This document shows, piece after piece, positions 1-4,736 of a stretch of 24,893 bases of DNA (positions within the stretch are counted from its first letter, which is position 1; the number at the start of each line of letters is the position of its first letter). The stretch is taken from IMG/VR virus record IMGVR_UViG_3300025646_000339, positions 1 through 24,893 of that record; one strand, written 5' to 3'. A program made the translations under genes and the position numbers. The stretch is from a virus. The notes beneath the pieces are model-generated. The model had not been told where the DNA came from, made no database searches, and saw nothing but the letters and a program-made list of their open reading frames with translations.

Positions 1-163
1 ACCCGCACCCGCCACGCCTCGAACACTCACCCGAACGCAACAGACGGAACCCGCACCGACAGAACACCCGCCGAGGTCGACACGCGACCAGCACGCCCCA
101 ACCGATTACGAGCACCGCCAGCAGTGCGAACGCGTCCGATATCTGTGCCGTGTCGCCTCTCAT
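1..163 (-). CDS. Small membrane/Cys-rich protein, 3' end cut by window edge
   Basis: Last visible gene of the minus-strand operon. It starts at ATG 163 in a 4-base ATGA overlap with the stop of the upstream gene, and a GATTGGGGCGAA stretch lies just before the start. Fifty-four codons are visible and no stop is reached before base 1. Residues about 11-28 are strongly hydrophobic (DAFALLAVLVIGWGVLVAC) and look like one membrane segment. An arginine-rich stretch follows, then closely spaced cysteines (CRC, then C and C further on), suggestive of metal binding on the cytoplasmic side. No family is recognised. The coupling supports its being a real gene; function is unknown. Confidence 0.6.
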   Translation of the reverse strand, partial: MRGDTAQISDAFALLAVLVIGWGVLVACRPRRVFCRCGFRLLRSGECSRRGGCG

Positions 164-1134
164 GACTTCGCCCCAATCGACACCGGAACCGATGAGAACA
201 GATCACGACCAGCACCCCGACGCAAGAACAGCACCGACGCACCGAGCCCCGACGGAAGACACAGCCGACACACGTCGCACGCGCCACGCACCAGCCCGCC
301 AAATTCCAGCGACCGCCTACGACCGTCTACGCCGACGATGTGCGCTGGCCCGCGTCCGTCCGTTGACCATTTGCCGCCAGCCGCTGGACATTGCCGCAAC
401 CCCGACAACACAGCCCACGCGCCCGAAACACTTCGCACCGCGTCCCACATCTTCCGCGCCTGTTCGGAATCGTCCGCCAAAATCGCTAAAGGTACTTGAT
501 GACGCACAGCGACACGCGCCGCCTTCAGCAAGTTGTGAGGGTCTGCCGAGACATACACGCGCAAGTTGTCGCCACCTCGCACGAGATGACGAACAGCGCC
601 CAACGTCCGCGTGTAGAGCCAGCCTTCAACGTCTGGCCGCGCCCGATGCGCCGACGCAATTGCCCGCGCTACCGGCTCCGACCAAATATCGCCGGACATA
701 TTCCAGCGGAACGTGACACGCTCCAGCCCGTCCCGCCGTTGATGCTCCGCTACATGGTCGAGGATGTCGACGAACACCCGAGACAACGCACGAGCCCCGC
801 CGCACTGCTCGACGTGTTGCAACGTTGCGAGGTTGTCAGCCGCCAAACGTTCGAACGCCGAATAACGTTCGAGGCTCTTGCCGTAGCACGACCGACATGA
901 CTCAGTGAACCCGACACACGAGCCCCCAACCGAACGCGGTCCCGCAGTCGTTGCGATGGCGTTCGCATAGACAGCGGTCGCACCCTTAGAGCCCCACACG
1001 CCCGCCGGAGATGTCTTCGAATCAGCAGAAAGACGAACCACCACCGACGCACCACACGAGCACTCAGAGAGCACCACAGAGGCCGACGCAGGCAACGAAC
1101 GACGCACAACACGCCCAACCGCCACCGCAGTCAT
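160..1134 (-). CDS. GP88-like Cys-rich phage protein (324 aa), function unknown
   Basis: The ATG at 1134 overlaps the upstream stop as ATGA; a GTG at 1143 in the same frame would overlap more and is less likely. The sequence resembles a family common in actinophages and actinobacterial mobile elements, here called GP88-like. It has an early cysteine cluster (C73, C80, C83, in ESCRSCYGKSLERY), a central WNMSGDIWSE block near residues 144-153, a WLYTRT block, a VYVSADPHN block, and a late cluster (C249, then C286, C289 and C292 in CDVCRLCL). The two clusters suggest a metal or Fe-S site. The family assignment comes from motif resemblance recalled without a search. It is the largest gene of a tightly coupled small-gene operon. 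Confidence 0.7.
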   Translation of the reverse strand: MTAVAVGRVVRRSLPASASVVLSECSCGASVVVRLSADSKTSPAGVWGSKGATAVYANAIATTAGPRSVGGSCVGFTESCRSCYGKSLERYSAFERLAADNLATLQHVEQCGGARALSRVFVDILDHVAEHQRRDGLERVTFRWNMSGDIWSEPVARAIASAHRARPDVEGWLYTRTLGAVRHLVRGGDNLRVYVSADPHNLLKAARVAVRHQVPLAILADDSEQARKMWDAVRSVSGAWAVLSGLRQCPAAGGKWSTDGRGPAHIVGVDGRRRSLEFGGLVRGACDVCRLCLPSGLGASVLFLRRGAGRDLFSSVPVSIGAKS

Positions 1135-1271
1135 TGTTCGCACCCGATGCAGTCATGCCAGTCGCGGTCGTGCAAGTCCCAAGACATGAACCAACACACA
1201 AAGCATTGCGAAAGATGCAAACAACGTTCAAACGGTAGGCCACAATTCTGGCAAATGTCCGCCACACTCAT
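1131..1271 (-). CDS. 46-aa Cys-rich zinc-binding microprotein candidate
   Basis: This short frame starts at ATG 1271, overlapping the upstream stop as ATGA, and ends in TGA at 1131, overlapping the next start as ATGA. The protein has CQNC (7-10), C17, CFVC (23-26) and CIGC (41-44), plus histidines at 19, 34 and 39. Three CxxC pairs in 46 residues imply one or two structural zinc sites. The exact coupling on both sides is the best evidence that it is translated; without it a 125-base hole would break an otherwise gapless operon. Exact role is unknown; protein or nucleic-acid contact is typical for such zinc knuckles. Confidence 0.7.
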   Translation of the reverse strand: MSVADICQNCGLPFERCLHLSQCFVCWFMSWDLHDRDWHDCIGCEQ

Positions 1272-1579
1272 GATTCGCCCCAATCCACATCGAAAAGATC
1301 AGACAACGCGACACGCCACTCGGCCGCGTTCTCATCGCCACGAGTAGCAACCACAGCAAAAGCTTCTGCCCCCGCATGGTCACCCACATCGACCGACAAA
1401 ACACGCACCGGAACCGACACCACATCAGCCCCAGAGCCGAGCACACACCACACACGACCAAACAGGTCACCAGTGTCGCCCCACTGATCGATGCGCGCCT
1501 CCCGATATTCGACGAAGTCAGACCACAACGCATGAAACAGCGAAGCAGGCACAGACACTTGAACGTCTCGCATGCTCAT
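1268..1579 (-). CDS. Hypothetical phage protein (103 aa)
   Basis: Starts at ATG 1579 in an ATGA overlap, with a strong Shine-Dalgarno (GGAGGTGAT) encoded in the last codons of the upstream gene. A second ATG six bases later (1573) is possible but lies outside the overlap pattern. The protein is acidic, mixed alpha/beta in character and soluble, with no cysteine cluster or membrane segment. Its last codons carry ATTGGGGCGAA just before the next start, a sequence repeated at the 160-163 junction. I do not recognise a family. Confidence 0.75.
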   Translation of the reverse strand: MSMRDVQVSVPASLFHALWSDFVEYREARIDQWGDTGDLFGRVWCVLGSGADVVSVPVRVLSVDVGDHAGAEAFAVVATRGDENAAEWRVALSDLFDVDWGES

Positions 1580-1827
1580 CGGATCACCTCCCCATCAGAC
1601 ACAACTTCGAGAAGGTTCTCGCATTCGAGCACCTGCTGAGCGAACTGCTCAGACAACCGCCACGCCGCACGAGCACCGCCCTCACCATCCGCAAACGGAG
1701 GAATGGACGAACCCGCCCGCAACTCATCAGCAACCGCCGACAACTCAGCCGAAGCCTTCCGATACTCATCGAGCGCGCAACGCAACGCCGCTTCGATGGT
1801 GTACAACTCGCCACGCTCAAAACTCAT
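1576..1827 (-). CDS. Hypothetical small helical protein (83 aa)
   Basis: Starts at ATG 1827 in an ATGA overlap, with GGAGGTG six bases upstream inside the preceding gene. Composition is Ala/Glu/Leu-rich. Two long amphipathic helices are likely, about residues 8-38 and 52-75, separated by a Gly/Pro-containing loop, as in a helical hairpin. Its C-terminus (ENLLEVVSDGEVIR) resembles that of the first gene of the operon (SVWEVVLEVAQS), so the two could be distant paralogues; this is weak. No known domain is recognised. Confidence 0.72.
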   Translation of the reverse strand: MSFERGELYTIEAALRCALDEYRKASAELSAVADELRAGSSIPPFADGEGGARAAWRLSEQFAQQVLECENLLEVVSDGEVIR

Positions 1828-2066
1828 GACGACACCTCCGAATTACGAAACCCGAACGCCTGCCCAGTCTCCTCGAGATACAACGCCTCGAGCGCCTCGA
1901 GCGCACCGACCTTCGTACGAGCCTTAATGCCATAAGCAACACGCACCATCTGGAGTATCGAACCTCGAGAATGCGTAAGACCCGTACGAGTCTCAATCCG
2001 AAGCGCGGCGATGCACTGCCCCATATGAAAAATACGCGAGTAATAAGCCTGTATTTCATTACTCAT
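1824..2066 (-). CDS. Hypothetical small protein (80 aa)
   Basis: The start is set at ATG 2066, not the in-frame upstream start at 2096, because 2066 forms the ATGA overlap and has GGAGGTG at a good distance. The protein MSNEIQAYYSRIF... is mostly helical. A central GSILQMVRVAYGIKART segment is followed by an Ala/Leu/Glu repeat (ALEALEALYLE). One cysteine and no membrane segment are present. Function is unknown. The final codons (SEVSS) encode the next gene's Shine-Dalgarno. Confidence 0.72.
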   Translation of the reverse strand: MSNEIQAYYSRIFHMGQCIAALRIETRTGLTHSRGSILQMVRVAYGIKARTKVGALEALEALYLEETGQAFGFRNSEVSS

Positions 2067-2347
2067 GACTGCGCCACCTCCAACACGACCTCCCACACCG
2101 ATTGCACATCATCGAGCACCGACTCGAAACGCTCAATTTCATCAGCAACCCAACCAGACGCAACCAGCCCAGCGTTCACCTCATAATCGCACCCATCAAG
2201 AGGAGAACGAAACACCGCGACCCCCTCGAACGAATCGCCACGAGCAACAACAGCCCGCAACACCGCCAAAGCAGAACGCAAATCACGCTCCACCCAACGA
2301 AGAGACGCATCGACTACGCCCCACTGTCCCAAATCCAAACGATGCAT
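2063..2347 (-). CDS. First gene of the small-gene operon, hypothetical (94 aa)
   Basis: Begins at ATG 2347 with AAAGGA eight bases upstream, the only start in this operon that is not overlapped by another gene, so it leads the transcript. The protein is acidic and helical: residues 15-37 form a likely amphipathic helix (LRWVERDLRSALAVLRAVV), and residues 68-92 another. A middle block (VFRSPLDGCDYEVNAGLV) may be a short beta region. No family is recognised. No convincing -10/-35 pair was found in the long leader region upstream (2348-2600). Confidence 0.72.
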   Translation of the reverse strand: MHRLDLGQWGVVDASLRWVERDLRSALAVLRAVVARGDSFEGVAVFRSPLDGCDYEVNAGLVASGWVADEIERFESVLDDVQSVWEVVLEVAQS

Positions 2348-2404
2348 AACACATTCCTTTCAATAACGGAGCCGACCCCACGCCGACCCACACAAACGAG
2401 GATA

Positions 2405-2461
2405 ACACCCACAACCACCCAAACCACGCACCCAACCAACAAACCAACCACCACCAAACCA
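2405..2461. other. A/C-only tract (G/T on the transcribed leader strand)
   Basis: Over 57 bases the plus strand has no T and a single G (position 2428). On the minus strand, which would be the 5' leader of the small-gene operon, this reads as G/T only, with many GG doublets (for example GGTTTGGTGGTGGTTGG). That could form a two-layer G-quadruplex or an unstructured loading site. Its position 60-110 bases upstream of the operon start makes a leader role possible. Confidence 0.45.
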
Positions 2462-2610
2462 GCAAGGCGTGGCACAACCGCCAGCCCGACGTGATCGGAG
2501 CAGTGAGTGAACGTGACACATGCCACTATCACGCTATGCACCGTCATGCATACATATACATCCTGCCAAAATTTTTTCGCTCGGTCGCTTCGCTCCCTCG
2601 CCCCCTGTAT

Positions 2611-2743
2611 CTCTACTGGCAGAGTTTTACTGACGGGATACCAGTCCCTCTCAGGTTCCAAACCCTGAGGAAGCCGCCCCCGGCGGCTGCTGTAATACCC
2701 CACCCCCCTACCGTCTGCTTGCAGAATCCTCGACCGGGGGTAT
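2611..2743. other. Run of consecutive hairpins, candidate structured RNA or replication element
   Basis: Five stems lie close together: CTCT/AGAG (2611-2624), GGGA/TCCC (2635-2648), CTCAGG/CCTGAG (2650-2669), AGCCGCC/GGCGGCT with a CCC loop (2672-2688), and an outer ATACCCC/GGGGTAT stem (2695-2743) that encloses CTGC-TT-GCAG. An alternative ACTGG/CCAGT helix (2614-2645) competes with the first two. No U-run follows on either strand, so a simple intrinsic terminator is unlikely. It does not match any tRNA or riboswitch I know. The strand on which it acts is not determined. Confidence 0.4.
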
Positions 2744-3103: not shown

Positions 3104-3829
3104 TCAGATTTGTAGCTCGAGTTGTTCCCAGTGCGGCTGGTTTGTCCAGATTACTTCTGTGCGTTTTTGTTGGTTGATGTTGTTGTGTTGTTGGAATGGT
3201 TTGAAGGGGAGCCAGTTGGCTGGTTGTTGTTCGCAGACGATGGTTTGTCCTGGTAGTTGTTGGCACCATTGTGCGAGGTGTTGGTAGTTGATGTGTTGGC
3301 TTCCGTGTCTGTATCCGTTGCCTGCTTGGTCGTTGATGCTGCGGTTTGGGTTGATGATGTTGAGTTGGTATGGGGGGTCTACGAAGTAGGTGGCTTCGAT
3401 TTGGGGGGTTTCGGTGTAGTCGGCGCAGCGTATTTCAATTTTGTAGAGGTGTGGCAAAATTTTTTTGAGCATTTTCTTTTTTTGGGGCCATTTTGTTTTC
3501 ATCCAGGGTGTGATTTGTCTGGATTTTCCGCTGAGTGTGGCGTGGACGCTGGTTCCTCCTCCGAGTCCGGCTATGAGTGGTTCGGTGGTTCGTTGTTTGT
3601 CAAGTTCTTTGTCGATTCTGTCAAGGTCTTGTAATGTCATGTTTTGGAGTCTGTGCCAGAGGTTGACTACTGCTTCGTCTTTTTCGATAAGCAGGATGCG
3701 TTTTGCTTTGTGTATGTGAAACATGGAGTATGCGGCTGATCCTGCGAATGGTTCGATGATGGTGTGGTGTTGTGGTGGCGGGTAGTAGCGGGCTAGTCGT
3801 GTTTTCGCCCCGTAGTATGCGAATGGCAT
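3104..3829 (-). CDS. dam: D12-class DNA adenine N6-methyltransferase
   Basis: Transfers a methyl group from S-adenosylmethionine to adenine N6 in DNA, likely to shield phage DNA from restriction or to mark it for replication or packaging. Visible motifs in order are the N-terminal PFAYYGAK (residues 2-9), the AdoMet-binding EPFAGSA (26-32) and the catalytic DPPY (151-154), the order of the Dam/D12 family. The length of 241 residues is close to the usual 250-280. The start is set at ATG 3829, which shares a base with the upstream stop (TAATG) and has GAGGA nine bases before; an ATG at 3838 lacks spacing for a ribosome site. The C-terminal third is rich in Gln, Asn and His, reflecting A/C-rich coding. 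The target site is unknown. No cognate restriction gene is present. Confidence 0.93.
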   Translation of the reverse strand: MPFAYYGAKTRLARYYPPPQHHTIIEPFAGSAAYSMFHIHKAKRILLIEKDEAVVNLWHRLQNMTLQDLDRIDKELDKQRTTEPLIAGLGGGTSVHATLSGKSRQITPWMKTKWPQKKKMLKKILPHLYKIEIRCADYTETPQIEATYFVDPPYQLNIINPNRSINDQAGNGYRHGSQHINYQHLAQWCQQLPGQTIVCEQQPANWLPFKPFQQHNNINQQKRTEVIWTNQPHWEQLELQI

Positions 3830-4590
3830 TAGTTGCATTCCTCACATTGGGTGGCGTAGTAGCGGCCTTGATCGTCTTCGAAGCTTGTCCAGCCGGTGGA
3901 GTCGCATGCTGGGCATTGTGGGCGTGGGGGACGGTCGTATGCGCGTACAGGGTCGCTGGTTTCTGTGGTGTCGTTGTCGTATGAGCCTGCGTTAAGCCAG
4001 GATGCCGGGTAAGGGATGTATTGGGGATCTCGTGAGAGTGCGGTTTCTGGGGTGGCTAGTTGTTTGCGGGTTGCTTCGATGATGTGTTCCGGGTTGACGG
4101 TTTTGGTGTGACGGTTCCATGCTTTGATGGCGTTTTGTTTGTTGACCTTTTTTGGGTATAGCTCCCACCATTTGTTAAACGCTTCACCGTCAGGTGAGCA
4201 AGAGTGTTTGGGTTCTTGGGTTCTATTGGGTTTGGGTGCAGTGGTTGCACCCCTGGGTGTCGTAGATTGCACCCCTGGATGCACAGATTGCACCCCTGGG
4301 CGTGTTTCGTAATAGATATCCACAGGAGGGAATAGGAATCGGTAGGTTGCCGGGTGGTGTTGGGTTGCTGGCCGGGTTTCAATGATGAAAAAGTCGTTGC
4401 ATAGCTGGTCGATGGCTTTTTGTACGGTTCTTCTCGAGGTCCGTGTTTTGGATGCAAGGTTGTCGGTTGACATCCAGAACTGGTTGTGGTTTTGGTCGGA
4501 CACTGTGTCTGCGATTGCGAGGTGGATGGTGAATGTTGCTCCGCTGTATGGCGAGTGCCGGTAGACGTAGCCGACTGCTTCTGCGCTCAT
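3829..4590 (-). CDS. Phage replication initiator, lambda-O-like organisation (HTH + linker + C-terminal domain + zinc ribbon)
   Basis: Probably binds the phage origin and recruits the host replication machinery. Residues about 36-88 form a winged helix-turn-helix (STDNLASKTRTSRRTVQKAIDQL then a wing). A Pro/Thr/Gln-rich linker (95-130) follows. The C-terminal domain at 136-205 carries WWELYPKK, AIKAWNRH and YIPYPASWLN, a block common in phage replication proteins. The last 30 residues hold a CPAC...CEEC zinc ribbon (C226, C229, C249, C252). GAAAGGAAA precedes ATG 4590. DNA iterons lie in the linker-coding stretch, as in lambda O. The gene is coupled to the methylase downstream. No helicase loader is visible next to it, so it may recruit host factors directly. 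Confidence 0.82.
   Translation of the reverse strand: MSAEAVGYVYRHSPYSGATFTIHLAIADTVSDQNHNQFWMSTDNLASKTRTSRRTVQKAIDQLCNDFFIIETRPATQHHPATYRFLFPPVDIYYETRPGVQSVHPGVQSTTPRGATTAPKPNRTQEPKHSCSPDGEAFNKWWELYPKKVNKQNAIKAWNRHTKTVNPEHIIEATRKQLATPETALSRDPQYIPYPASWLNAGSYDNDTTETSDPVRAYDRPPRPQCPACDSTGWTSFEDDQGRYYATQCEECN
4234..4299. repeat. Iteron cluster, candidate replication origin inside the initiator gene
   Basis: The 12-mer TTGCACCCCTGG occurs exactly three times, at 4245-4256, 4267-4278 and 4288-4299, spaced 22 and 21 bases, about two helical turns. Just before, GGGTGCA (4234-4240) forms a perfect 7-bp inverted repeat with TGCACCC of the first copy. Copies 2 and 3 are read in the same codon frame (PGVQ), but copy 1 is in another frame (PRGA), so the DNA and not the peptide is conserved. 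A DnaA-box-like ATATCCACA (4316-4324, one mismatch to TTATCCACA) lies 17 bases away, and a T-rich stretch (about 4134-4165) on the other side could be the unwinding region. Confidence 0.7.
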
Positions 4591-4680: not shown

Positions 4681-4736
4681 ACACCCCGAGTGAAGCGGGT
4701 CGGGTTTTGTTTGGTTTCCCCGGCCCGCTCCTCGTG

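Follow-up and report, generated by a model that had tools for sequence, protein, structure and literature searches.

A putative iteron origin within a phage replication initiator gene and a recognition-helix residue that tracks iteron sequence

Why would the DNA encoding the linker of a phage protein carry three identical repeats that are not all translated in the same frame? The question is raised by a replication initiator gene on a viral contig (IMG/VR record IMGVR_UViG_3300025646_000339, positions 1 to 24,893; this whole stretch of 24,893 nucleotides is referred to here as the window). An earlier note on the same DNA reported three exact repeats at a spacing of 21 to 22 bases in the linker-coding part of the gene, and all three were recovered, at spacings of 22 and 21 (Table 1). 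The 12-mer TTGCACCCCTGG has exactly three copies in the window, each reading CCAGGGGTGCAA on the gene strand, and no second 12-mer of the window reaches three copies in a 60-nt span. The translations given in that note also held, with PGVQ encoded by two copies and PRGA by the copy that is shifted by one base. The 12/12 triple match was reached in 0/100 synonymous-codon shuffles (best, 9) and 0/100 codon-order shuffles (best, 8); the repeat is therefore forced neither by the peptide nor by codon usage. We interpret the repeats as initiator-binding iterons of a phage replication origin located inside the initiator gene, a reading to which we assign a probability of about 0.88 on the basis of the sequence comparisons described below.

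Table 1. Coordinates of the initiator gene and of the putative origin elements in the window
Feature	Position	Strand	Remarks
Phage replication initiator gene, 253 aa	3829..4590	-	Domain order from the N terminus: winged HTH, disordered linker, helical domain, zinc ribbon
N-terminal winged-HTH domain, residues 1-88	4327..4590	-	AF2 helices 42-49 and 53-65; wing strands 69-73 and 82-85
Lys58 codon, recognition-helix residue	4417..4419	-	Tracks iteron sequence across the family
Linker, residues 89-133	4192..4326	-	pLDDT < 50 (AF2), predicted disordered; origin elements inside
C-terminal helical domain, residues ~135-205	3976..4188	-	AF2 helices; presumed partner-loading domain
C-terminal CxxC...CxxC zinc-ribbon-like end	3832..3918	-	From sequence; strands in the AF2 model
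Iteron 1 (first in gene order)	4288..4299	-	PGVQ, frame 0
Iteron 2	4267..4278	-	PGVQ, frame 0
Iteron 3	4245..4256	-	PRGA, frame 1 (shifted by one base)
Terminal inverted half-site GGGTGCA (gene strand TGCACCC)	4234..4240	+	Exact inverted copy
AACCC repeats (gene strand AAACCCAATAGAACCCAAGAACCC)	4206..4233	-	Counterpart of the relatives' AT-richer ~11-bp AACC block; candidate unwinding element
DnaA-box-like ATATCCACA	4316..4324	+	8/9 match; on conserved Val-Asp-Ile codons

The identity of the protein rests on profile matches. Its best PHROG match was phrog_270, a replication initiation protein (E value of 4.5e-27), followed at a distance by the O-like phrog_678 (E value of 2.7e-7), while a Pfam scan returned HTH_36 below the Pfam cutoff (E value of 7.6e-5), besides it only HTH_11 and HTH_Mga, and no match to a RepA_N domain. 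An AF2 model of moderate confidence (pLDDT of 68) matched winged-HTH (wHTH) proteins in Foldseek, including the plasmid Rep structures 4pql, 4pt7, 4pta, and 5kbj, all weakly, and nothing was found at an E value of ≤0.001. The same C-terminal domain occurs elsewhere with other N-domains and without a GGGGTGCA array, GGGGTGCA being the core of the iterons. The next gene downstream, where the lambda O/P system has its helicase loader, encodes a D12 DNA adenine methyltransferase (window 3104-3838), the two genes overlapping at the end of the initiator; a DNA methylase is also the gene directly after the initiator in the Arthrobacter phages LittleTokyo and Chickaboom. A search of the window and of four related contigs found no DnaB_C helicase gene, a point against the origin reading, although host DnaB could serve as the helicase in place of a phage-encoded one.

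The array is followed in gene order by further elements. The perfect inverted 7-bp copy described in the earlier note is present, but it does not overlap an iteron as had been stated: GGGTGCA lies 13 nt downstream of the start of the last GGGGTGCA core and is separated by 5 bp from the TGCACCC at 4246-4252, with which it forms a 19-bp interrupted palindrome. Beyond it lie the AACCC repeats, whose AT-richness is slight, the GC dip being only 0.07 below the gene mean. The DnaA-box-like site that the note placed nearby also exists and is unchanged in close relatives of the window; since such sites were found in only 5 of 54 related genes, a DnaA box is not a supported part of the origin design, and this one is probably not a working element. 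One distant relative (L397) carries in its linker, instead of iterons, a pair of perfect DnaA boxes (TTATCCACA and the inverse of it) and is perhaps a DnaA-dependent variant.

Identical DNA in different frames had been taken to argue for selection on the DNA itself, and comparison with close relatives demonstrates, at the level of sequence, both such selection and concerted change of the copies. The array is retained in eight aligned homologous sequences. In loci L003 and L004 (75% amino acid identity), all three repeats are kept and carry the same T-to-C change, so that the cores move from GGGGTGCA to a GCGCA form (GGGGCGCA, GAGGCGCA, and GGGGCGCA), and the inverted half-site changes from TGCACCC to TACGCCC. 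The change replaces Val with Ala in two copies and is synonymous in the frame-shifted copy, and both PGVQ peptides are lost, being replaced by SGAQ and PEAQ. The expectation that spacing and repeats would persist among related phages while codons changed was thus borne out, and PGVQ kept without the DNA repeat, which would have spoken the other way, was seen in none of the homologues compared. Synonymous variation is also low across the origin region: among amino acid-invariant codons of five representatives, 4/32 varied within codons 88 to 136, compared to 58/120 elsewhere (Fisher P = 2e-4). This was the widest of four spans tried, and the narrower ones gave P values of 0.001, 0.014, and 0.10; the reduction is clear when the origin region is taken as a whole, but the 22 iteron codons by themselves do not reach significance.

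These observations bear directly on whether the repeat is instead selected as a PGVQ-type linker peptide. Two of the three copies do encode PGVQ, and repeats can occur in linkers. The third copy is nevertheless out of frame, PGVQ is gone in L003 while the DNA repeat remains, and the family arrays described below use all three frames; in addition, the linker is predicted to be disordered, and the origin-encoded linker of plasmid pSK41 is dispensable in trans (PMC5703833). On the strength of the out-of-frame copy and of L003, we reject a peptide repeat as the explanation and regard it as very improbable; the repeats of the window are conserved as DNA and not as peptide.

In locus L005, the C-domain of the window (54% identity) is joined to a different N-domain, and the array also differs (CCCCTCGCGC at 23 and 22 bp); support for it is weaker because 2/100 synonymous shuffles reach its score. 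An uncultured phage gene for a different wHTH-like protein (L012, 2330-2430) contains the same 12-mer TTGCACCCCTGG at a 22-bp spacing but in reverse orientation with respect to its gene, possibly by convergence on the same site.

The GGGGTGCA core is common to related initiators of Pseudomonas, Arthrobacter, and Amycolatopsis elements, mostly every 22 bp. Pseudomonas phages JBD68 and CF183a have ACGGGGTGCAA three times (22 and 22 bp; frames 2, 0, and 1), and Arthrobacter phage LittleTokyo has four cores 22 bp apart (frames 0, 1, 2, and 0). A scan for three GGGGTGCA cores at 21 to 23 bp returned at least 120 matches in viral contigs and at least 118 in genome contigs, and the matches located in initiators encode RGA, GC, and GVQ peptides in turn as the frame rotates. 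In 140 unique GGGGTGCA arrays within open reading frames with this N-domain, the spacing was 22 in 283 of 309 gaps, an inverted TGCACC stood at +13 in 130 arrays, and all three frames were occupied in 122, which extends the argument from frames well beyond the window. We define the class by (i) a wHTH N-domain homologous to JBD68 gp54, (ii) at least three GGGGTGCA cores at 21 to 23 bp, (iii) an inverted TGCACCC at +13, and (iv) a residue other than Arg at position 58, all of which the window possesses. Its nearest named counterparts are the PHROG 270/1032 initiators (JBD68 gp54 and LittleTokyo gp44), which share the homologous N-domain and in-gene GGGGTGCA arrays at 22 bp; the window differs in its 21/22 rather than 22/22 spacing, its zinc-ribbon end, and an AACCC rather than AACCRTC block.

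The arrays go with the N-domain. Among 56 representatives chosen by protein similarity, with two-copy chains that had further near-copies included, an array whose core reads GGGG(T/C)G or G(G/A)GGYGCA was present in 24 of the 26 genes with an N-domain HMM score of >90 and in none of the 30 genes scoring below 60, although many of the latter share the C-domain. Sequence comparison thus demonstrates co-occurrence of N-domain and array. Could the repeats still be a product of chance or of recent tandem duplication? Short tandem repeats arise easily, and some 21-bp GGGGTGCA arrays in Clostridia metagenome-assembled genomes (MAGs) look unrelated, but none of 100 shuffles reached the match seen in the window, the arrays are kept and changed in concert over 25% protein divergence, and the layout is conserved across phyla; of all the alternatives considered here, we find this the hardest to credit. 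Many matches in genome contigs with 21- and 21-bp spacings lie outside initiators and were excluded from the class, among them the 21-bp arrays of Clostridia/Oscillospiraceae MAG contigs (L150, L154, L158, L171 to L173, and L220).

Beyond this class, a search of about 1,190 genomes with the N-domain retrieved prophage relatives whose iterons have many other sequences. Across these sequences the terminal inverted copy follows the iteron of its own gene: in 54 genes with an array, the match between the two was 5.89, against a permuted mean of 5.21 (standard deviation, 0.10), and the highest of 5,000 permutations (5.59) fell below the observed value. After the inverted copy comes an AACC-repeat block with a preferred spacing of 11 (43 cases), AACC repeats being more frequent across the family than in synonymous shuffles (2.57 versus 1.44), and at +30 to +60 after the array the GC content is 0.14 to 0.17 below the gene mean.

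While variants were being tabulated, GGTGnCA arrays were first seen together with Arg at the position equivalent to Lys58 of the window, which the AF2 model places within helix 53-65 of the winged HTH. In a scan of all N-domain columns, that of residue 58 ranked first (Arg in 8/8 versus 0/52; P = 4e-10), and the runner-up had a P value of 0.008. A test set of viral contigs was then picked by the DNA pattern GGGTGWCA ×3 only, and the prediction of Arg58 was recorded before the proteins were inspected. The array lay within an open reading frame with this N-domain in 103 of 120 loci, and Arg58 was present in 66/66 dereplicated GGGTGWCA arrays compared to 0/50 GGGGTGCA-selected ones (Fisher P = 5e-34, a value that ignores relatedness and overstates independence, there being only 2 independent pairs on well-supported branches). 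A few test loci are close to the discovery set, e.g., L465, which shares a contig with L370. In a tree from which the residue 58 column was left out, both traits change 13 times and the changes coincide, giving 13 independent pairs on the best tree. Near-isogenic Arthrobacter phage loci provide a compact example, with Asn and GGGGTGCAC in L367 and Arg and GGGGTGMCA in L369. The correlation of residue 58 with iteron sequence is thus demonstrated by comparison and supports the wHTH domain as the probable reader of the iterons.

The same correlation weighs against a DNA-packaging or partition site. A divergent terminase gene does start at 4690, about 390 bp away, and pac and parS sites can be repeated. 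The arrays, however, vary with the N-domain of the initiator itself and with residue 58 of its recognition helix, and in the named phages inspected they lie in initiators beside early genes (resolvase and methylase) rather than beside the terminase; a packaging or partition function is therefore most unlikely.

In-gene iteron origins as a kind are already known, and two systems offer close parallels. The origins of lambda, in gene O, and of phi80, in gene 15, have tandem iterons at intervals of ∼20 to 24 bp midway along the initiator gene (PMC7466680), and the window shares the lambda-type arrangement of three or more direct repeats between the DNA-binding and C-terminal domains. The parallel with oriLambda that the earlier note drew extends to the frames: the annotated iterons of lambda occupy frames 0, 2, 2, and 1 (those of phi80, 1, 0, 0, and 0), so that iterons in different frames are a feature shared with oriLambda, and lambda O has an AT-rich tract at +30 to +60, the same offset as the GC drop of the family. 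In contrast, the iteron sequences are unrelated, and each lambda iteron is near-palindromic in itself, whereas in the window only the last one is completed by an inverted half-site. The best PHROG of lambda O (phrog_277) was absent among the PHROG matches of the window protein, only weaker O-like matches being in common. Direct homology of the N-domain to lambda O was considered and set aside, as the profile comparison was not significant (probability, 5.5%).

The second parallel is found in the RepA_N plasmid pSK41 and the chimeric pPR9 of staphylococci, in which, as proposed for the window, an in-gene origin occupies the linker between a wHTH N-domain and the C-domain. The N-domain of pSK41 binds boxes in the center of rep, the origin-encoded middle part acts as a linker that is dispensable for activity in trans, and the C-domain is separate; in pPR9, which replicates, a phage-like pfam13730 (HTH_36) N-domain and origin region replace those of pSK41 (PMC5703833). 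The window differs from both in iteron sequence and C-domain and in being a phage rather than a plasmid.

By analogy with lambda (PMC7466680) and with pSK41 and pPR9 (PMC5703833), the array would most likely work as follows. The wHTH N-domain would bind each GGGGTGCA core and read it with the recognition helix, of which residue 58 is a part. With ∼22 bp, or two helical turns, from one copy to the next, the bound proteins would stack along a single face of the DNA, and the last copy with its inverted half-site would form a palindrome marking the boundary of the array. The strands would open at the adjacent AACC-repeat block, which is usually AT-richer, and the C-terminal domain may bring in the replicative (host) helicase, after which replication would start.

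A different function for the same contacts would be that of operators, the wHTH protein only repressing its own or other early genes and the origin lying elsewhere. Autoregulation is common among wHTH proteins, many transcription factors are among the best fold matches, and the data point to matching of protein to DNA rather than to initiation as such. Yet the arrays are located in mid-gene and not at promoters, and the genes concerned encode proteins assigned to replication initiators or to O-like families; an AT-rich AACC block follows at a fixed offset, as in lambda; and the phage-like N-domain of pPR9, with its in-gene origin region, supports replication (PMC5703833). We consider operators improbable, though less so than the other alternatives, and favor an in-gene origin. 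The cumulative GC skew of the contig was uninformative as to origin position: its turning point is near 2.7 kb rather than 4.25 kb and falls in a stretch of different composition. The GC skew is about −0.22 to −0.27 in window 1-2700 and +0.33 from 3 kb, a contrast that could stem from the orientation of the genes, from a mosaic joint, or from a join made in assembly.

Which residue of an HTH selects which base is a long-standing question for which matched pairs have been too few. Each gene of this family carries its own binding sites, so that every sequenced copy is a matched protein-site pair supplied by the genome. We think it likely that these pairs constitute a readable protein-DNA code, in which Arg58 or its absence separates GGGTGWCA from GGGGTGCA origins, specificity has been switched many times through the residue together with all iterons and the half-site, and the linker peptide is largely a by-product of an origin translated in rotating frames. 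An origin translated in this manner would explain the odd repeated linker peptides (RGA/GC/GVQ) of many annotated phage proteins, and arrays in initiators offer a simple route to origins in uncultured phages and prophages. The open-licence papers searched contained no description of the GGGGTGCA class, of its three-frame register at 22 bp, of the terminal half-site that covaries with the iterons, or of the residue 58 correlation.

A second specificity position is possible at residue 53. Arrays of the GGGGCGCA type (L268, L271, L273, L278, L280, L288, and L003) tend toward Arg at the equivalent of window residue 53, a lead found post hoc and to which the window itself, with Arg53 and GGGGTGCA, is an exception.
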